Shown here: one piece after another, positions 4,066-32,349 of the stretch | Layout of the letters: every line of letters starts with the position of its first letter | How positions within the stretch are numbered: the stretch's first letter is position 1 | IMG/VR virus record: IMGVR_UViG_3300022689_000473 | Span: 1-34,221 of that record | DNA length: 34,221 nt | From: a virus | Direction: 5' to 3' (one strand) | Notes under the pieces: model-generated | What the model was told of the DNA's origin: nothing | The model's database searches: none | What the model saw: only the letters and a program-made list of their open reading frames with translations | Translations under genes and position numbers: made by a program

Positions 4066-4476
4066 ATGGCGCTGAACCTGGCCGGTGTGGAGCCGACGAT
4101 TACCGACAGCACGGTCTTTACGCATGTGACGGAGAGCTTTGATGCGTCTAAGCGCTCGCAAGCGTCGCTGGGGGCGGTGTGTGAGTATCACCCAAAGCTG
4201 GCGGAGTATTATGCGCAGATCGCTGGTGCGGGTGACCCGCTGATGCAATCGGCGCTGGTGCGCTATGAGACGGACCCCGATACACTGGTCTTTGCGCTGG
4301 TGCCGTCCATGGCGATGGCAATGCTGTTTGACCTGATCCGCGCTGGCCAGTTTGCCGGCGTCTATCTGGAAGACGATGACGGTGGTCGGGACTGCTGGCC
4401 GCTCGTGCGCATCTTTTCTCAAATGAAGCGTAAGCCGCTGGTCAGCGCGCATGACGACGCGATCGAAGGGCGGTAG
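4066..4476 (+). CDS. Early hypothetical protein, paralogue of next gene
   Basis: A 136-residue soluble protein of unknown function. Its C-terminal half contains LVPSMAMAMLFDLIRAGQF followed by AGVYLEDDDG. The same spaced pattern (PS-A---LF--IR-G-F-GV-L) occurs in the downstream gene at 4478, as does a GDPL motif preceding it, so the two look like diverged copies. It sits between membrane peptides and a CII-like regulator in the early operon and is separated from the next gene by one base. Confidence 0.65.
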   Translation: MALNLAGVEPTITDSTVFTHVTESFDASKRSQASLGAVCEYHPKLAEYYAQIAGAGDPLMQSALVRYETDPDTLVFALVPSMAMAMLFDLIRAGQFAGVYLEDDDGGRDCWPLVRIFSQMKRKPLVSAHDDAIEGR

Positions 4477-4477
4477 C

Positions 4478-5017
4478 ATGACGAGTGCCTTTGCCAACAT
4501 CGCGCCGCGCGGGGCGGATACGCCTGGCAAGTCCTGGCGCGCCTTCACGCTGGCGCGCGGCCATTTGATCGAAGCGAGCAAGTATAGTGACGCGCTATGG
4601 CGCGCGGTCGCTGCAATCCGCGACTGGCGCCGATTTACCGCGGCTGTGCATCCGATGCCGGGCGATCCGCTGGGCCGGGGCAGATTAGGGCAGGGGCTAT
4701 ACCTGCCGAGCGCCGTCGCATGCCGCCTGTTCTGCCATATCCGGCTTGGACACTTTGACGGTGTCACGCTGGGCCATGGCCTGATGCCTGATTGGCCGCT
4801 GGCGCAGCACAGTGCCGGCACAGCCGCCGTCTCTTCTGGCGCTACCGGAGAGGCGCTGTCGGGATCGCCGGGCACAGTCATGGTTGATGAGCATGGTTTT
4901 GATCCTGGCATTTTAACTGACTCTGATACGCAACTCGCACTTGATGGTGATGATGGTGCCAATATGCAGCGCGGGGCGCCATCCCCCGTCTTTCACAAAA
5001 GCGGGGGTGCCTTGTGA
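4478..5017 (+). CDS. Early hypothetical protein, paralogue of preceding gene
   Basis: A 179-residue protein of unknown function. The ATG at 4478 is chosen because it directly follows the previous stop; an upstream in-frame ATG at 4451 would overlap that gene. Residues about 12-100 share the pattern of the preceding gene (GDPL, then LPSAVACRLFCHIRLGHFDG), indicating duplication and divergence. The C-terminal 80 residues are low-complexity, rich in Gly, Ala, Ser and Asp, and probably disordered. The stop overlaps the start of the CII-like gene. Confidence 0.65.
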   Translation: MTSAFANIAPRGADTPGKSWRAFTLARGHLIEASKYSDALWRAVAAIRDWRRFTAAVHPMPGDPLGRGRLGQGLYLPSAVACRLFCHIRLGHFDGVTLGHGLMPDWPLAQHSAGTAAVSSGATGEALSGSPGTVMVDEHGFDPGILTDSDTQLALDGDDGANMQRGAPSPVFHKSGGAL

Positions 5018-6392: not shown

Positions 6393-6841
6393 TGGTGATG
6401 CCGAAAGCAGAGCGCCAAGCGCTGGTGACCCAGGCCTTTAACAAGGCCGCGGGCAATAAGTTTAAAGCACAACGGTTCTTTGATGCTGACAGCGGAGAAT
6501 GGTTTGACAGCAAGGGTGAATTCGCCCGCTGGAAGCAGCTGGTCTTGTTGCAGCGTGCCGGTGCGATCAAAGGCCTGGAAAGGCAGGTGCGCATCGATCT
6601 CTTTGCCGCTGGCCAGGGTGTGCCGGCCATGCCGGTAAAAATCCGGTCTGAAGGTGTGCCGCAAGGCCGCCAGGCGTTCTACAAGGCCGACTTTGTCTAC
6701 ACCGAGTGCAAGACCGGGCGGCGGATCGTCGAAGACTTTAAAGGCAAGGACACCGCCATGAGCCGGTTAAAGCGCGCCATCGTTGAAAACATCATCGGCA
6801 CCCCTGTGCTGATCACCAAGGCAGGAGGGCGGCGGGTATGA
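6392..6841 (+). CDS. DUF1064 family putative nuclease
   Basis: A 149-residue protein with the DUF1064 pattern: a start rich in basic residues, 'FDSKGEFARWKQLVLLQRAG' (Glu in a helix), then RQAFYKADFVY and RIVEDFKGKDT. The last two carry the D...E-x-K residues of a restriction-endonuclease-like (PD-(D/E)XK) site. Phage members of this family are predicted structure-specific endonucleases and often lie beside replication genes, where they may resolve recombination intermediates. The start could be 6392 or the ATG at 6398. It overlaps the initiator gene by 4 bp. The biochemical role is a family prediction. Confidence 0.8.
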   Translation: MVMPKAERQALVTQAFNKAAGNKFKAQRFFDADSGEWFDSKGEFARWKQLVLLQRAGAIKGLERQVRIDLFAAGQGVPAMPVKIRSEGVPQGRQAFYKADFVYTECKTGRRIVEDFKGKDTAMSRLKRAIVENIIGTPVLITKAGGRRV

Positions 6842-7872
6842 CGCTGGGCTTAGTCGATAAATGGAAGTGCGTTGAAGCCATGTTGGCCGACGACCGTCTG
6901 TCTAAAGCGGATGTAATGGTTGGGGCGGCTCTTCTGGACCTTGTACGCGCCGATGAAGGCTGTGCCTATCCGGGATTTGGGTATCTGGCCGACCGGCTGT
7001 CGCTGGGCCGCAGTACGATTGTCCGTGCGGTGAAGAAGCTGGAAGCCGCTGGGTATTTTGACATCGAACGCAGCAATGGCGGGCGCCAGAACAGCAACCG
7101 CTATCGTCCGCGTGCCCTCGAACATTCTAGTGCCACCGCTAGCAACAGTGTCAGAGATGACACCATTGAGGCCGATGCCGACCAGAATGAAACCGAAACA
7201 GTATCAGGCGTGACACCATTACAACGCGCCGAGGACGCGGCACTAGTGTCAGAGATGACACCGTTAGGGCCGGAAACGGGCGCTATCCAAAAAAAAAGGG
7301 TGTCACAGATGGCACCATTAGACGCTGCGGAACCACAAAAAGAGGGGTTAACGGTGTCAATCCAGTCCTCTAACGGTGTCAAAATGGTGCGCCCAACAGT
7401 GTCACCTATGACACCCGATCCTAGTTATATAAATATTATAACCCATTTACGCGCAGGCGCGCGCGAGGACGCATCCCCCGCGGGTGGGGAAACAGCGCTG
7501 GCTGCGGAGCAAACATCTGCGCCAGCGACATCCAAGACTTCTGGCTGTCGCAGGAGGAAGCCGAAACGGCCAGACCCGCGCCAGCCTGAGATGCTGCTAC
7601 CGATCGCTGGTGGACACGCCAGACAGGCGAAAGGAGGTGAGACACGGAACCGATCGGTGCGCAGCCCTCAAACACCCTTGCAGTGGGGGCAGATGGTGCA
7701 ATTGCTTGGCAAGGCAGGTCTTAGAGCGGACATGGCCAATCAGGTCCTGATGCGGTTAAGCCAAGCCCAATATGATCATTTTTCCATTCACTGGATTGGC
7801 AAGGCGCCGGAAACAGCCCTTAGGGCGCTGCATCGCGCAATCACCCAACCTAATCTGCGAAAGGTGGCGTAG
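6838..7872 (+). CDS. O-like replication initiator with winged-helix domain
   Basis: A 344-residue protein. Residues about 20-90 form a winged-helix DNA-binding domain (FGYLADRLSLGRSTIVRAVK, then LEAAGYFDIERS). The central third is low-complexity and contains repeats such as VSEMTPL, VSQMAPL and VSPMTP, because the DNA there carries iterons. The C-terminal 70 residues (TPLQWGQMVQLLGKAGLR onward) form a small helical domain, possibly for helicase or loader contact. The layout (N-terminal DNA binding, origin inside the gene, C-terminal protein-binding domain) parallels lambda O. No phage helicase or loader gene follows, so the host DnaB system is probably recruited. Confidence 0.8.
   Translation: MTLGLVDKWKCVEAMLADDRLSKADVMVGAALLDLVRADEGCAYPGFGYLADRLSLGRSTIVRAVKKLEAAGYFDIERSNGGRQNSNRYRPRALEHSSATASNSVRDDTIEADADQNETETVSGVTPLQRAEDAALVSEMTPLGPETGAIQKKRVSQMAPLDAAEPQKEGLTVSIQSSNGVKMVRPTVSPMTPDPSYINIITHLRAGAREDASPAGGETALAAEQTSAPATSKTSGCRRRKPKRPDPRQPEMLLPIAGGHARQAKGGETRNRSVRSPQTPLQWGQMVQLLGKAGLRADMANQVLMRLSQAQYDHFSIHWIGKAPETALRALHRAITQPNLRKVA
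7148..7449. other. Replication origin: iterons plus AT-rich region inside initiator gene
   Basis: Five copies of a palindromic iteron of form GTGTCA-N4-TGACAC-CATT start at 7148, 7201, 7246, 7300 and 7399; two further GTGTCA half-sites start at 7354 and 7376. The copies at 7148 and 7246 share GTGTCAGAGATGACAC exactly; those at 7201 and 7300 differ by a few bases. Directly downstream (7422-7449) is a strongly AT-rich tract, TTATATAAATATTATAA, the only one in the area, which fits a DNA-unwinding element. The arrangement within an initiator gene is that of lambdoid origins. Function is inferred from architecture. Confidence 0.75.
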
Positions 7873-8322: not shown

Positions 8323-8613
8323 TCACGCCGCAACGACCTTCGCAACCCGGCTTGGACTATCCAGGATCACCCGTAGATATGCCGCTGATGTTTCGGTCGG
8401 CACGTTTCGGCCTTGTTCCCAATCGCGCAGGGTGCCAACGGGGATTTTATACGCTTGTGCAAAGGCGGCCTGGCTCAATTTCAGCTCCTTACGCAGCAAG
8501 CGCAGATCACGTACCAGGGCCGCCGTCCGCGTCATATCCGCCGTCACGTCAAAATCATCAACGTCGCTGGGGTCTGCTTTACAGACTGTGGTAGAGCTTG
8601 ATTTCTGTGTCAT
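8323..8613 (-). CDS. XRE-type antitoxin paired with BrnT
   Basis: A 96-residue protein. The first about 28 residues are polar and acidic, likely the toxin-wrapping segment; residues about 33-80 form an XRE-type HTH (LRKELKLSQAAFAQAYKIPVG, then TLRDWEQGRN), ending in a helix with the pattern 'YLRVI'. Such proteins replace the ribbon-helix-helix BrnA antitoxin in many BrnT modules. It overlaps the toxin gene by 35 bp, downstream of it, the usual order for BrnT systems. Expected role: neutralise BrnT and repress the shared promoter. Confidence 0.85.
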   Translation of the reverse strand: MTQKSSSTTVCKADPSDVDDFDVTADMTRTAALVRDLRLLRKELKLSQAAFAQAYKIPVGTLRDWEQGRNVPTETSAAYLRVILDSPSRVAKVVAA

Positions 8614-8848
8614 TGGATTTCCTAAAACTAATGATCCGAAAGGTAGTACCGCGCATGGTGTAGATCACGGTGTGCAAGCGATCCCCAATCATGCCCAGTG
8701 CTTTAAACCGGTCTTCCTGGTCAACCGCGCGCGTGTGTTTAAACACGAGCATATGGTCATCAAGCCAAACCTGCGGTGCATCCTTAAACGCCAGACCGTG
8801 CTTGGCTGTGTTGGCGTCGTTCTTTGCTGGGTCAAACTCAATATCCAT
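8579..8848 (-). CDS. brnT: BrnT family toxin (RelE-like ribonuclease)
   Basis: An 89-residue protein with the BrnT signature: start MDIEFDPAKNDANTAKHGL, then FKDAPQVWLDD, an 'EDRFKALGMIGDRLHTVIYT' core and the ending RIISFRKSNDTEIKLY. BrnT toxins are RelE-fold ribonucleases that block translation when free. The start at 8848 is chosen over a longer frame to 8944 because the family begins with this sequence and a strong promoter lies immediately before it. The gene opposes the surrounding phage operon, so it is probably expressed from the prophage as an accessory (moron) module. Confidence 0.9.
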   Translation of the reverse strand: MDIEFDPAKNDANTAKHGLAFKDAPQVWLDDHMLVFKHTRAVDQEDRFKALGMIGDRLHTVIYTMRGTTFRIISFRKSNDTEIKLYHSL

Positions 8849-8854
8849 GCTGTA

Positions 8855-8883
8855 AATATACGGTTCACCCGTAGTTATGTCAA
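8855..8883 (-). promoter_or_regulatory. Promoter of the brnT-antitoxin operon
   Basis: On the minus strand, TTGACA (8878-8883), a 17-bp spacer and TATATT (8855-8860) form a near-consensus sigma-70 promoter. Only six bases lie between the -10 and the toxin ATG at 8848, so transcription would start at or very near the start codon, suggesting a leaderless message. This geometry also supports the chosen BrnT start. Confidence 0.8.
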
Positions 8884-8907
8884 TCAAAAACGGCAGGTTT
8901 TGGCGGC

Positions 8908-9540
8908 ATGAAGGCATCAGAAAACCAAGAATGCAAGCAGACACGCCGCCAAGCCATAGAGCAAGGCGCCAAGCGCTCGAACCGAGCCGCCCGCACGGAC
9001 ATGATGAAGCCGGATATCCGCTGGTATGCGGTGCTTGTCCGGTCCGGCAAAGAGTTTATCGCGCAAAAGATGCTGCGGCGGTACGGCTGTGCGGTCTATG
9101 TACCGATGTCGCGCAAATGGCGGCGCCTTAATCGCTACAAGCAGGAGAAAACCAAGATTGCCTATGCGGCCCTGCCTGGCATGGTGTTTGTGGGATACGC
9201 CGAGGGCGAGGAACGCTGGTTTGATATATTTTCTAACATCACCTGCGCCTATGGGGTGCTTGGCGTTGCTGGTAAGTTGATCGCCTTCAACGGGCCGACG
9301 CTGGCGGATTTTGTGACGCGAAACAGATCGACGCTGGATGTGGCAGACGAAGAAAAATGGATGCGGACACACCGGGAATTTAAAATCGGTGACCGGGTGC
9401 AAATTGTTGCCGGGCCGCTGGATGGCCATATCGTGGATGTGCGCGACATCAAGGGCAATGCTGCTATTGTGTTGATGGAGTTTTTCGGCGGGATTAAGCA
9501 GATTGAAATATCGCTTGAAAAGCTTGAAAAGGCGGCGTAA
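8908..9540 (+). CDS. Phage NusG paralogue, putative antiterminator
   Basis: A 210-residue protein with a NusG N-terminal (NGN) domain at about 35-135 (DIRWYAVLVRSGKEFIAQKM, then AALPGMVFVGY) and a C-terminal KOW domain at about 155-205 (KIGDRVQIVAGPLDGHIVDV). NusG paralogues such as RfaH bind RNA polymerase and stop it from pausing or terminating in chosen operons. Position is telling: last gene before a 321-bp non-coding stretch and then the whole late operon. A Q-like late-gene antiterminator is the best inference. The N-terminal 30 residues are basic and phage-specific, unless translation starts at the ATG at 9001; the RBS for 8908 is weak. Confidence 0.88.
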   Translation: MKASENQECKQTRRQAIEQGAKRSNRAARTDMMKPDIRWYAVLVRSGKEFIAQKMLRRYGCAVYVPMSRKWRRLNRYKQEKTKIAYAALPGMVFVGYAEGEERWFDIFSNITCAYGVLGVAGKLIAFNGPTLADFVTRNRSTLDVADEEKWMRTHREFKIGDRVQIVAGPLDGHIVDVRDIKGNAAIVLMEFFGGIKQIEISLEKLEKAA

Positions 9541-9861
9541 TTTAGCGCGTGTAATGACGTGTTAGGGATCAGTGTTAGTCGGCAGAGCGGCACCCAACCC
9601 GCCCCCGCAGAACGCAACTGACACGCCCCAGGTGCCCCGAGGTGCTTTTGGTTAAGACTGTTCCGGGCAAGGCGCGCGGTGCAGTCGTTAGGTTGTCTAA
9701 AATCGACATAAGTTTAACAAGGCTGGCGCTGACTGCAGCATAGGCCCGCCCGGACTGTTTATCTGGTTTTGCAAGCGACGACTGCGCCCGCGGCGTCCGC
9801 AGGTCGTTCCTATAGGTTCCCAAACCCGCCTGCGGGCGTTTTCTTATTTTCAGGAGGGCGT
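9541..9861 (+). promoter_or_regulatory. Early/late intergenic region with hairpins and possible terminator
   Basis: 321 bp without a convincing gene, between the NusG paralogue and the late genes. It contains two GTGTTAG direct repeats near 9560 and 9573; a 9-bp hairpin with one bulged A at 9778-9807 (outer stem ACGAC/GTCGT, inner GCG/CGC); and a short GC hairpin followed by a T-rich run at 9824-9848 (CCCGCCTGCGGGCGTTTTCT), a plausible weak terminator. A good RBS (AGGAGG) then precedes the GTG at 9862. No clear -35/-10 pair was found. It is the natural place for a late promoter, leader and antiterminated stop. Confidence 0.5.
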
Positions 9862-10170
9862 GTGAAAGCGGTTTTTGTTCTTCTGTCGCGGACGTTAAAC
9901 GTTTTAAGCGGCGGAGATTGGCGGCTGACATTAAGTGCGGATACGGGGCTGAACACCATTCGCCGCGGCTATCCTAGCCTCTTTCACACTGTGTTTGACG
10001 CGCTTTTTTTGGCGACGATTGGACAATATCAGCACTGCATTGCGTCCGTCACAGACGACGAGATCGATGACTTTTTCCCAATAGACAGGCGGTCCAGCGC
10101 AAAAGCATACCGTGATGGCCTGTTGGATGCCTTGACCTTTAGAGGCTTTAAAACGGAGTTCAGACTATGA
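9862..10170 (+). CDS. Small phage protein, first of the late region
   Basis: A 102-residue protein. The GTG at 9862 is preferred because AGGAGG lies just upstream; the longer open frame to 9769 would read through the terminator-like hairpin. It begins VKAVFVLLSRTLNVLSGGDW, and the 'R.LNVLSGGD...T.SA..G' pattern resembles a family of small phage proteins with an NVLTGG motif whose function is unknown. The C-terminal part (DDEIDDFFPIDRR) is acidic. The stop overlaps the next ATG. Confidence 0.6.
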   Translation: MKAVFVLLSRTLNVLSGGDWRLTLSADTGLNTIRRGYPSLFHTVFDALFLATIGQYQHCIASVTDDEIDDFFPIDRRSSAKAYRDGLLDALTFRGFKTEFRL

Positions 10171-10534: not shown

Positions 10535-13500
10535 GTGGCATTAACGGACTCCCACAGCCACTTTCTCGCGTTCACCATAGCAGCCGCGCAGGTTGCTGGG
10601 GCTTCGCACTCAAATATACCGGTTCTTCTAACCGAGCAGATGCTAACCGCCGCGCAGCGGACGGCTTTATTCAATGCGGCACGTCCCGACGGGTTTGATG
10701 TTCGGTTCGCGTCATCTGCCGCTGGAGACAGCGAATACGCCTTTGAGCTTATTGCATGGAATGCAGCGGCTCAGACCTTTATCATCTGGGTAAAGATACC
10801 GACGGTCTCAGGTGTCGCTGATACGGACTTTTTTATGTTCGTCGGCGATGCGGACGCTGCGTTGCCCTTGCCCGGTGCTGCCAATGGCCGCGCTGCTGTT
10901 TGGTCGGACTATGTCGCCGTTTACCACGGTAATTCGTTAGTCAATGCGGCGTCTGCCACGGGTATTGGTGACCTAACGGCTGTTGGGTCCCCCAGCCTAA
11001 ACCAATCGCCTGGTGTAACGGGTGGGCGCTTTCAGACGTCCGGCAACAACTACTATGAAGCGGTAGGGTTTAATCCCTTACTCGGACCGGGTGATAAAAC
11101 TCTGTCCGCGGCTTATCAAAATCAAAACCCAAATACGTCCGGCAGGGCTGGCCTATTACATACGGGCACCAATTCCACGGGTAAAAGACTGTCGGTCGAG
11201 TTTCGATACGACACCGATACTGTGCTATTCGGGGTCGCTAATGGCAGTATCCAAACGCCGTTGGTTGCCGATATAGGACGTGTCGCCTTCACCTACGATG
11301 CTAGTGAAGCGACAAACGCCCTGGCATTTGTTGATGGTGCACAGGTTGCAGCGGACGTCCTACCAACCATTGATGTGCTGGCCGGCGATAATCTAAGAAT
11401 AGGCCGCGATCGCGGCACCCAAGACTTTGTAGGGTTCTTAAGCGAGATTAGACTCCGGGCGAGCACATTATCGCCTGACTGGATTGCAACTGAACATGCG
11501 AACGTGTCGAACCCAGGCACATTTGCAGCTGCTAGTGATTTGCAGGCAGTGGGTGGCACCCCAACACCCAGCCCAACCCCAACACCAACCCCTACCGAAC
11601 ATTGGTTTGACTTAACCGTTGGCAATTTGGTTGTTGGTGGGCCGCATACAGATTTTGCGGTCTTGGTGACTGAGGAATGGCTGACACCTGCACAGCGCGC
11701 CGATCTGTTTGCGACGGCTAGGTCTGATGGCGCAAATATTCGGTTTTCATCCGACAATACTGGAAACACGGAATACCCATTTGAACTTATTGCCTGGGAC
11801 GCTGTCGGAGAGACGTTTGCGGCGCGGGTGAAGCCGCCAGCTGTTGCAATTGGCACCCAATTCACTTTGCGCATTGTGGACGGCGTTACGGCGCTTCCAG
11901 CCCCTGGCGATGCCAATGGCCGCATCGCTGTTTGGCCGGATTATGATGCGGTTTACCACGGTAATTCGTTAATCAACTCGGCATCTGCGACCGGGGTTGG
12001 GGACCTAACGGCTGTTGGAAGCCCGCTGCTTGATCAATCCCCTGTTGCAAGCATTGGGCGGTTCAGGCCGTCGCCTGGCGCCGATAACGGGAACTATTTT
12101 GAAGCGGCGGGCTTTTACCCTCTTTTGGGGGCGGGTGATAAAACCGTTCTTGCAACGCTGGATATCGAAGCGGGGACTGACCAGGGCGTTATGCACTGGG
12201 GCAGGAACGTTGCAACCGGCAGTCGTTTTACGTTCATTACTGACGGTGCCAACGCGCCCATCATTGGCTTCAATGGCGGTGCGGTCTCGGGCACTTCTGC
12301 CCTGGGTACTGGCGTTGTATCCGCAGCTTTTGTGCATGACGCATCAGAAGCGCCAAACGCGGTGATATATCTAAATGGCGTGTCTGATGGCACCGCAACA
12401 GTCACAATAGACACAATTGCGGACGGTGATGGTCTACGTATTGGCCGCGATAATGCCGCAGATAACTTTGATGGCTTTTTAAGCGATATTCGCTTTAGAA
12501 ATGTAGCTGTTTCAGCAGACTGGCTGGCGACTGAACACGCCAATAGGGCCAATATCGCGGCGTTCGGGTCATCTGGCGATATGCAGTCATCCGCCGCCGG
12601 TGCTGTCAACGTCATTGCAGAAGACCTTGCGTCGGCGGCGGTATTAGATGCCGCAACGTTGTCTGGCATTTATGTTTTAGATCCAGCGCCGCTGGTGTCT
12701 GCCGCCGCGCTGGATGATGTGGTCATCGGGCAAACAGATGTCTTCTTGGTTATTGGCCAGTCAAACGCCATCGGTCGCGCGCCTTTTGATAATTTGGGCG
12801 CGCATCCATCCGGCACGCAGCAATACTCAAATAACGCTGCAACGCAAGACACGGTGATTGCCGCGACTGTGCCTCTAGAACATGCAGGCCGCGTGCCGGG
12901 GGATATGGGGCCGGACGTTAGTTTTGCCGAAGACTATGCGGCGCTTAACACGGGAAACACGCTGCTATTCATGCCTAATGCGGTGGGCGGCACGGGCCTG
13001 GGTGATCCAAATGCGCGGTGGGCTGTCGCCAGTGCCGATTTGTATAGCGAAACAGTGACGCGAGCGAATGAGCTACTGGCTCTTGATCCAAGGTATGTCC
13101 TGCGCGGCATCATTATTCAGATCGGCGAGCGCGACACAAACCAGAACACAGCGGCAGCGACGTTTGAGGCGCTGCTTGATGAACTTATAACGGCGCTGCG
13201 GGCCAACATTACAGGTGCCGCGGATGTACGGGTCAGTGTGGGCCCAATGTTGCCCGCCTATGTGTCGGCACAGCCCAACGGCCCGGCGATTGAGGCTGTG
13301 CTGGCGGATACGCCGAACAGACTTGCAAATACGGTTTATGTTTCGCCTGCGGGCTTAAACCTACAGGGCGTCGACAGCGTGCATTTTGATGCGCCTTCGC
13401 TTCGCGCGCTGGGCTCAGCGCATCTGGATAATTTTGAGGCATTATTGAGCGCGCCTGGCGATGACCCCATTAATGTCATCGCGCAAGACCTGATATCCGC

Positions 13501-13645
13501 TGCAGCACTTGACCAGGCGTCGTTGTCTGTCGAAGGCCTATTGGATCTAGCCTCGCTGGAGACCGCAGCAGCGTTAGACGACGTCACCGTCGTGTTTGAT
13601 TCCGTGTTGAACTCCACGTTTAGAATTCTCGAAGTTAGCAAATAA
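10535..13645 (+). CDS. Large modular adhesin/esterase virion protein (DUF2341, LamG-like, SASA)
   Basis: A 1036-residue protein starting at GTG 10535. Two tandem units, each a DUF2341-like domain plus a LamG/concanavalin-like domain, span about 20-335 and 358-685; both carry AVYHGNSL and GFLS-(E/D)-IR motifs. They are joined by a Pro/Thr linker (PTPSPTPTPTPT, about 342-355). Residues about 735-970 form an SGNH/SASA-type esterase with block I VIGQSNAIGR, an IQIGERD block (normally QGE-D) and DSVHFD with the likely catalytic His. A 42-residue repeat (N-VIA-DL-SAA-LD) flanks the esterase at about 690 and 978. Probable receptor-binding protein that removes acyl groups from surface polysaccharide. 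Unusually it precedes the packaging genes. Confidence 0.78.
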   Translation: MALTDSHSHFLAFTIAAAQVAGASHSNIPVLLTEQMLTAAQRTALFNAARPDGFDVRFASSAAGDSEYAFELIAWNAAAQTFIIWVKIPTVSGVADTDFFMFVGDADAALPLPGAANGRAAVWSDYVAVYHGNSLVNAASATGIGDLTAVGSPSLNQSPGVTGGRFQTSGNNYYEAVGFNPLLGPGDKTLSAAYQNQNPNTSGRAGLLHTGTNSTGKRLSVEFRYDTDTVLFGVANGSIQTPLVADIGRVAFTYDASEATNALAFVDGAQVAADVLPTIDVLAGDNLRIGRDRGTQDFVGFLSEIRLRASTLSPDWIATEHANVSNPGTFAAASDLQAVGGTPTPSPTPTPTPTEHWFDLTVGNLVVGGPHTDFAVLVTEEWLTPAQRADLFATARSDGANIRFSSDNTGNTEYPFELIAWDAVGETFAARVKPPAVAIGTQFTLRIVDGVTALPAPGDANGRIAVWPDYDAVYHGNSLINSASATGVGDLTAVGSPLLDQSPVASIGRFRPSPGADNGNYFEAAGFYPLLGAGDKTVLATLDIEAGTDQGVMHWGRNVATGSRFTFITDGANAPIIGFNGGAVSGTSALGTGVVSAAFVHDASEAPNAVIYLNGVSDGTATVTIDTIADGDGLRIGRDNAADNFDGFLSDIRFRNVAVSADWLATEHANRANIAAFGSSGDMQSSAAGAVNVIAEDLASAAVLDAATLSGIYVLDPAPLVSAAALDDVVIGQTDVFLVIGQSNAIGRAPFDNLGAHPSGTQQYSNNAATQDTVIAATVPLEHAGRVPGDMGPDVSFAEDYAALNTGNTLLFMPNAVGGTGLGDPNARWAVASADLYSETVTRANELLALDPRYVLRGIIIQIGERDTNQNTAAATFEALLDELITALRANITGAADVRVSVGPMLPAYVSAQPNGPAIEAVLADTPNRLANTVYVSPAGLNLQGVDSVHFDAPSLRALGSAHLDNFEALLSAPGDDPINVIAQDLISAAALDQASLSVEGLLDLASLETAAALDDVTVVFDSVLNSTFRILEVSK

Positions 13646-19922: not shown

Positions 19923-19948
19923 CCGGGGCGGTCGCGCCCCGGTTTTTT
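19923..19948 (+). terminator. Intrinsic terminator after capsid gene
   Basis: A perfect 8-bp stem CCGGGGCG/CGCCCCGG with a GTCG loop followed by six T. It lies 12 bp after the capsid stop and before the connector genes, so it would cut transcription of downstream tail genes relative to capsid unless read through or antiterminated. Confidence 0.88.
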
Positions 19949-30507: not shown

Positions 30508-30546
30508 GCCCGCCTCTCAACAGTGAGTTTGGCGGGCTTTTTTATT
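30508..30546 (+). terminator. Intrinsic terminator between endolysin and holin
   Basis: Perfect 7-bp stem GCCCGCC/GGCGGGC (30508-30514 and 30531-30537); the 16-base loop holds a small inner stem (CTC/GAG), and it is followed by a run of seven T. Strong rho-independent terminator placed inside the lysis cassette, separating endolysin from holin genes. Confidence 0.88.
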
Positions 30547-31613: not shown

Positions 31614-32349
31614 ATGAAACAGACAAACGTACGCCAGTTCTTCAAACAGTTTCCAGACGACGAAACATGCCTCGTACGTCTATTCAATGTCCGCTTTGGC
31701 CAAGGCCATGAATGCCCCAAGTGTCAGCGCGCTGCGAAATGGTATCGCCTGCAGTCAGAACTGGCTTTCTCTTGCCAATGGTGCGGCCATCACATTCACC
31801 CGATGGTTGGCAGCATCTTTGAGAAAAGCCGTACTCCTTTGCAGCTTTGGTTCTACGCGATTTTCCTTTTCACCACGTCCAAGCATGGTGTTAGCGGGAA
31901 AGAGTTAGAGCGCCAGCTTGGCGTCACATATAAGACTGCATGGCGCATGGCTAAATTGATCCGCGAGCATATGGCTGAAATCGACGGCGAAGCCCCTCTA
32001 GGCGGTGCTGGAAAAGTCGTTGAAGTCGATGAAACCTACATTGGCGGCAAAACCTCTGGCATGGACTGGCGCAGCCGCAAGAGCGTTGTCATGGGCATGA
32101 TGGAGCGCGACGGCGACGTTATGCTTAAGGTTGTTCCAGATCAGCGCCACGCTTGATGGCACGACAACAAACTCAATTGAGAATTTCTTTGGCCACCTCA
32201 AAAGGTCACTGCGGGGCACACACAACAACGTGTCGGCTAAGTATCTACAGACCTACGTCAAAGAGTTTGAGTACCGCTTCAATCGTCGGATGACACCTCA
32301 CGTGATGCTGGATGAGTTGCTTTCCCGCTTCCCTGAGCTGGGCGCTTAA
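31614..32349 (+). pseudogene. IS1595-type (ISXO2-like) transposase, internally deleted
   Basis: The first 178 or so codons are intact: zinc ribbon HECPKCQRAAK with CQWCGHHIHP, an HTH region (SGKELERQLGVTYKTAWRM), and the first catalytic Asp in VEVDETYIGGK. The frame breaks after VVPDQR and stops at 32154-32156. In another frame (about 32150-32349) the C-terminal part resumes: TNSIENFFGHLKRSLRGTHN, then EFEYRFNRR. The segment normally between them (about 45-50 residues, with the second catalytic Asp of the DDE/N triad) is missing. This is therefore an inactive transposase by deletion plus frameshift. Confidence 0.9.

Follow-up and report, generated by a model that had tools for sequence, protein, structure and literature searches.

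In phage lambda, the antiterminator Q is encoded by the last early gene, which is followed by the late promoter pR', a pause and loading region and the terminator tR' before the late operon; Q itself binds a promoter-proximal DNA site. For RfaH, a NusG paralogue of enterobacteria, the available part of the structural account of the RfaH:ops complex describes a four-base loop of the non-template strand closed by a C3:G8 pair, and pausing caused by the TG at positions 11-12 (PMC5995543). The NusG paralogue LoaP of Bacillus velezensis works on dfn, where, according to the accessible sections of the report, a leader hairpin and an intrinsic terminator precede the first gene (PMC12691694). In an alphaproteobacterium, GafZ is described in part of a study as responsible for antitermination of a phage-type late cluster, that of the Caulobacter gene transfer agent (PMC11150451), and the accessible text on the phiLM21-like prophages places an antiterminator at the end of the early region in all of them (PMC12429752). 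The available text of the LM21 phage paper (PMC5537653) contains neither NusG nor antiterminat as words. An evolutionary study of NusG paralogues mentions rfaH-like genes on prophages (PMC7593976), and neither the accessible part of this study nor that of a review of the paralogues (PMC7819879) describes a phage late switch. In the open-access literature, with most subscription papers not covered, we found no account of a NusG-based late switch in phages.

The DNA analysed here, hereafter the window, is an IMG/VR virus record of 34,221 bases from an HK97-type tailed phage, the capsid protein of which shares 57-59% identity with its counterparts in Rhizobium phage 16-3, further Rhizobium phages and one Labrenzia phage. 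A sequence-only reading had proposed that a NusG-like protein, encoded directly before a 321-bp gap, and a structured leader together form a late-gene switch. This proposal is well supported by comparison in related phages, and the window shares with them the gene order and the terminator, but not the loading site. We put at roughly 0.6 the probability that the window gene encodes a phage NusG paralogue acting as a late-gene antiterminator, like lambda Q in function but built from NusG, in the manner of RfaH and LoaP. The reading is built on the NusG fold, the position of the gene, the terminator and the unit of leader, ops-like element and terminator in the relatives.

The identity of the gene and its place directly before the gap were confirmed by Pfam, PHROGs, a structure model and the coordinates (Table 1). 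Specifically, the protein matched Pfam NusG with 38 bits (cut-off, 22.2) and phrog_6386, 'transcription antiterminator', in PHROGs (E = 6e-23). An AlphaFold model with 32 phage NusG sequences as input (mean pLDDT, 79) predicted an N-terminal domain of NGN type and, with confidence, a KOW beta-barrel; Foldseek matched this model to structures of NusG, Spt5 and RfaH. With both NGN and KOW found, the protein is a true member of the NusG/Spt5 family. It scored far under the curated cut-off with each subfamily model tried, namely those of housekeeping NusG (TIGR00922, 25.4 bits against 135.7), RfaH (TIGR01955, 24.9 against 144.5), LoaP (NF033641, 41.6 against 125) and UpxY (NF033644, 49.2 against 100). 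Nor was membership in a Q protein family indicated, Pfam giving NusG only and PHROGs phrog_6386 only. The C-terminal domain is modelled as a beta-barrel with high confidence, a prediction that cannot exclude RfaH-type fold switching.

Table 1. Features of the window around the NusG paralogue gene and within the late region
Feature	Positions	Strand	Details
HTH_36 gene, probable replication protein	6838-7872	+	Pfam; the same gene type precedes nusG in related phages
NusG paralogue, 210 aa	8908-9540	+	Pfam NusG; phrog_6386; AlphaFold/Foldseek; predicted NGN-type N-terminal domain and KOW beta-barrel
Non-coding gap, presumed late leader	9541-9861	+	321 nt, from the nusG stop (9540) to GTG 9862
9-bp inverted repeat of the sequence-only reading	9778-9807	+	Competes with the terminator for 9798-9803; folds no better than shuffles
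Intrinsic terminator	9794-9851	+	Arms 9794-9803/9829-9838; U-tract 9839-9851, TTTTCTTATTTTC; abuts the Shine-Dalgarno sequence of the first late gene
Opening gene of the late operon, next after the terminator	9862-10170	+	phrog_3342 (E = 9e-5)
Intrinsic terminator behind the capsid gene, within the late operon	19923-19942	+	-18.0 kcal/mol, 6-T tail
Intrinsic terminator within the late region	30508-30537	+	-18.1 kcal/mol, 6-T tail

In the window, no other gene separates nusG from the late operon, which is on the same strand; the first late gene starts with GTG behind an AGGAGG Shine-Dalgarno sequence. Between the early genes and nusG, a BrnT toxin gene (Pfam) and an HTH-type partner ORF (by eye) occupy 8323-8944 on the minus strand, and a TTGACA-17-TATATT promoter there points away from nusG. 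A 1036-aa protein with LamG-like and SASA esterase domains is encoded at 10535-13645 (+) between nusG and the terminase genes, and because of it TerL lies 5.5 kb from nusG. Near the right end, transposase-like ORFs in two frames at 31614-32349 (+), IS1595/ISXO2-like by eye, may represent a broken insertion sequence.

The gap matched neither a tRNA nor an Rfam family, and folding over its whole length gave no significant structure (z = -1.5). The stretch 9794-9838, picked for the shuffle test after the inverted repeat was seen, folded at -21.9 kcal/mol (z = -5.8) with none of 200 shuffles as good, and the terminator ranked second among the 206 scored T-tailed sites on the plus strand of the window. 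A stricter consensus scan of 9500-9900, with loops limited to at most 8, returned no terminator. Two separate elements had been described here, a 9-bp hairpin, proposed as a possible ops- or put-like loading site for NusG, and a terminator-like element at 9824-9848. The repeat of the first is present, but 9779-9810 folded no better than shuffled sequence (84 of 200 as good); the second is weak alone (-7.3 kcal/mol, z = -1.4) and belongs to the larger terminator, the 5' arm of which overlaps the 3' arm of the repeat. Both are pieces of one terminator. Since the hairpin is part of the terminator and folds like shuffled sequence, we rejected it as a separate loading site; moreover, the hairpin P5 and the TGC-NNNN-GC-TATG element of the relatives do not occur in the gap, and the idea of a loading hairpin is most likely wrong. 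Because 9798-9803 is used by both folds, the short hairpin and the terminator are mutually exclusive, as would suit a protein-independent attenuator in which the two alternate, switched by translation, a ligand or polymerase speed, with NusG incidental. We consider such an attenuator very improbable, since the short hairpin has no more than the stability of shuffles, overlaps of this kind are common in G+C-rich sequence and the same pair of folds occurs in no relative.

The sequence-only reading had also pointed to two further strong terminators, and both are present in the late region with 6-T tails. Comparable hairpins, however, follow the capsid gene in relatives without NusG as well, so the internal terminators are weak evidence for a role of the paralogue, and we set them aside as such.

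NusG was found in none of 42 IMG/VR records related to the window by TerL (44 in total, L002 and L017 being left out) and, among the 80 loci related by the capsid protein (MCP), in four of the 24 with at least 6 kb upstream (L216, L248, L251 and L253). The late module therefore has no general need of NusG. L248, the nearest late-module relative among these four (TerL 49%, MCP 61% and TerS 33% identity), carries its NusG gene upstream of TerL, and NusG, where present in the capsid clade of the window, occupies the same place. The pairwise search did not match the window NusG to that of L248, and L251 is the only one of the four to carry the core. Neither viral_contigs nor genome_contigs yielded a relative when scanned with the window NusG, nor did viral_contigs when scanned with that of Leisingera, and a profile search of the available stretch of L267, a relative of the upstream HTH gene, found no NusG. 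In 385 alphaproteobacterial genomes, 24 had matches to the window NusG, all distant (at most 32% identity); downstream of those examined, a part of the 24, some had an ops-like GCGGTAGC and none resembled a phage late operon.

Searches with tblastn identified NusG genes in Nostoc phage Nsp-JY10, an Agrobacterium plasmid-prophage and a Leisingera phage-plasmid; each of these closes the early genes and is followed by the packaging region. A Mesorhizobium plasmid copy lies upstream of a polysaccharide operon. Further scans yielded 48 viral loci and 21 Rhizobiales genome loci, and five more named phages were found to carry nusG: phi2LM21, phi3LM21, vB_MseS-P1, Rivra and PPF1, each with an HTH or replication-initiation gene immediately 5' of nusG and terminase genes 3'. 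In total, nusG is the last gene before the packaging genes in six named phages (including Nsp-JY10) and two plasmid-borne prophages. The NusG gene and leader of Nsp-JY10 (L051) are of the Rhizobiales type, and hence its recorded host, Nostoc, may be wrong. At two other loci (L098 and L099), NusG-like viral genes run directly into a ParB-like ORF (by eye) with no leader.

For comparison of the sequences 3' of nusG, we assembled 61 distinct phage NusG loci, including the window, after removal of repeats and cut loci. Those dropped were L087, L102 and L119 on account of contig ends, L098 and L099 for want of a leader, L146 for being at the same place as L104, and loci duplicating the first 180 gap bases of another; L216, L248, L251 and L253, found later via the capsid gene, stand outside the set. 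In Rhizobiales loci, nusG is followed in order by a leader, the hairpin P5, 2-4 nt, the element TGC-NNNN-GC-TATG at about 100-210 nt after the nusG stop, in most cases an intrinsic terminator, and lastly the opening gene of the late operon. The ops-like element is present in 60 of the 61 loci, the window being the sole exception (in L090 and L145 only with A allowed in place of T at the start of the pattern); its loop varies (GAAA, GCAA, TACA, GATA and GTAA), the GC stem hardly. Under a strict T-tail rule, which overlooks terminators whose tail is TTTC, a terminator of at least -8 kcal/mol strength was found within 90 nt in 47 of the 61 loci but in only 52 of 600 random windows from the same loci. 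In eight loci (L064, L065, L069, L070, L101, L107, L113 and L115), the ops-like element and the late genes seem to have been separated by an insertion of extra sequence, which replaces the usual adjacent terminator. Most of the 61 loci were gathered by NusG similarity within one branch and so are not independent; generality is carried by the distant members, namely Leisingera, the Agrobacterium plasmid, phi2LM21, phi3LM21, PPF1, Rivra and vB_MseS-P1. Within 5 kb downstream of nusG, TerL is present in 53 of the loci, at 1.0-2.3 kb, and in seven it was not found on the available stretch. The TerL proteins form two groups, neither similar to the other at E ≤ 1e-3, and conservation of the non-coding unit across both indicates that it remains associated with NusG when the late genes differ. 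Among cellular NusG loci, the Mesorhizobium one has GCGGTAGCTGTG at the same place, after a hairpin, and L050 (8560-8780), L128, L138 and L141 have a hairpin-like stretch containing TTTCACCC or TTCACCC, followed by an ops-like GCGGTAGC or GCGGCAGC.

The leader RNA of the Rhizobiales branch, about 140 nt long and without an Rfam match, had 97.5% of cells paired in an alignment of 29 sequences. Ten of its 30 pairs were altered on both sides, compared with a mean of 3.3 in shuffles, none of 500 reaching as high, and with at most 4 in slid controls. The leader model gave one strong match in each of nine genomes out of nine, and a tenth match in this search adjoins a second NusG gene. In 397 genomes of the order, the two strong matches were to the source genome and to a new genome with its own NusG 5' of the match, and two weak matches had no NusG nearby; the strong matches are thus confined to the 3' side of NusG genes. 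For the core alignment, covariation was mixed: its score was reached by none of 500 shuffles, its both-side pair changes by 78 of 500. Weak matches of the core model R2, present in 48 of 385 genomes, look like chance and were discarded; among 30 loci examined, only the strongest adjoins NusG.

We found TTGC exactly 20 nt upstream of the nusG stop in 57 of the 61 loci. Where the residue at this site is Leu, the codon is CTT in 54 of 54 cases, whereas at other places in the same genes 104 of 707 Leu codons are CTT; TTGC is also kept where the residue is Ile or Val, and the fourfold site of the codon is T in 50 of 50 (51 distinct genes; mean major-base share, 0.60). Because TTGC and CTT are kept beyond coding need, the site is likely to be a DNA element such as a -35 hexamer, suggesting a late promoter that overlaps the end of nusG in the relatives, an arrangement that may recall lambda Q-pR'. 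In L248, TTGCGC-N17-TATATT stands immediately after the nusG stop. A sigma-70 candidate in the window, TTGAAA-17-TAATTT, was rejected, its 8 of 12 matches being equalled by 151 of 525 stretches.

Like its relatives, the window has nusG last before the late operon and a terminator directly before the first late gene. It is outside the 57 loci with TTGC 20 nt before the stop, and it lacks both P5 with the ops-like core and the Rhizobiales leader RNA: the leader model R1 and the core model R2, both built from the relatives, had no match in the gap, and no ops-like element was found there when one mismatch to the pattern of the relatives, or two to the ops pattern, were allowed. An exact ops-type word, GGCGGTAGCATG, in the early region of the window (4469-4480, +) is probably a chance occurrence and may stem from Gly-Gly-Ser codons. 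The window is a member of the proposed phage NusG late-switch group through gene, order and terminator only.

Two other explanations were weighed. In the first, the locus is an ordinary boundary: the terminator does no more than close the early transcript, the late genes are driven by an activated promoter of their own, and the paralogue is either cargo or a factor for other genes, of the host or of the early region. The many late-module relatives without NusG, the failure of the R1, R2 and ops-pattern searches to recognise a loading site in the window and the BrnTA pair beside nusG, which shows that cargo has been inserted here, are all in keeping with it; yet the terminator sits between nusG and the Shine-Dalgarno sequence of the first late gene, and the unit of gene, leader and terminator recurs before unrelated late modules, and we judge an ordinary boundary unlikely. 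In the second, the paralogue and host NusG compete for RNA polymerase, and phage transcription is thereby freed from Rho in general, with no specific loading site. The presence of both NGN and KOW in the predicted structure would fit such a competitor, as would the lack of a recognised loading site in the window, but a general factor would not need the conserved cis element that the relatives keep at a fixed place 3' of the gene, making general competition with host NusG improbable. A late switch built on the NusG paralogue appears largely right for the family and is, for the window, the best though unproven explanation.

Set beside RfaH and ops, as described in the available part of the structural account, the relatives likewise combine a NusG paralogue with a pause-like element ahead of the target operon, and its C-NNNN-G mini-hairpin geometry resembles that of C3:G8. 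They differ in that the phage NusG gene adjoins its target, the loops are mostly GAAA, GCAA and TACA instead of GGTA, and TG lies one position later; in the window, the KOW domain is modelled as a beta-barrel and the gap has no ops-like element. Like LoaP, the phage paralogue is encoded beside its target, with a hairpin and a terminator in the leader, but the targets here are phage late genes, and an ops-like element such as that of the relatives is not described for LoaP in the accessible sections (PMC12691694). With ops-like geometry and a leader hairpin and terminator both present, the phage system looks like a mixture of RfaH and LoaP, and we infer that the ops-like element may be read by the same mechanism. 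The order of last early gene, promoter, loading region, terminator and late operon would be that of lambda Q, whereas the protein family is unrelated and the candidate site, the ops-like element, lies far into the leader. GafZ differs in having NusA, host NusG and NusE as partners and, in the part of the study available, is not described as a NusG paralogue (PMC11150451). The account of the phiLM21-like antiterminator, as far as accessible, names neither NusG, a leader RNA, an ops-like element nor a mechanism (PMC12429752).

In the mechanism that we favour, the NusG paralogue would be made as the last early protein. It would then bind RNA polymerase as this transcribes the leader that follows the paralogue's own gene, and the loaded polymerase would pass the intrinsic terminator, which would otherwise block the way to the late operon. 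In the relatives, loading would occur at polymerase paused on TGC-NNNN-GC-TATG, placed after an RNA hairpin and a few tens of nucleotides before the terminator, and the leader would probably be transcribed from a promoter overlapping the end of nusG; the window may work in the same way. More broadly, we think it rather probable that alphaproteobacterial tailed phages possess a portable NusG late switch, a counterpart of lambda Q, in which the gene, a promoter at its end, a leader RNA of a new family, an ops-like mini-hairpin of the non-template strand and a terminator are placed as one unit before unrelated late modules, and that the window represents a diverged form of it, with a loading signal of its own.

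Were this so, phages would have arrived independently, by way of a NusG paralogue, at the function that Q serves in lambdoid phages, and antitermination of the RfaH/LoaP type would be a recurrent late switch of phages, beyond capsule and antibiotic operons. The variable ops-like loops on a steady GC stem would also offer a natural series on how NusG paralogues read the non-template strand.
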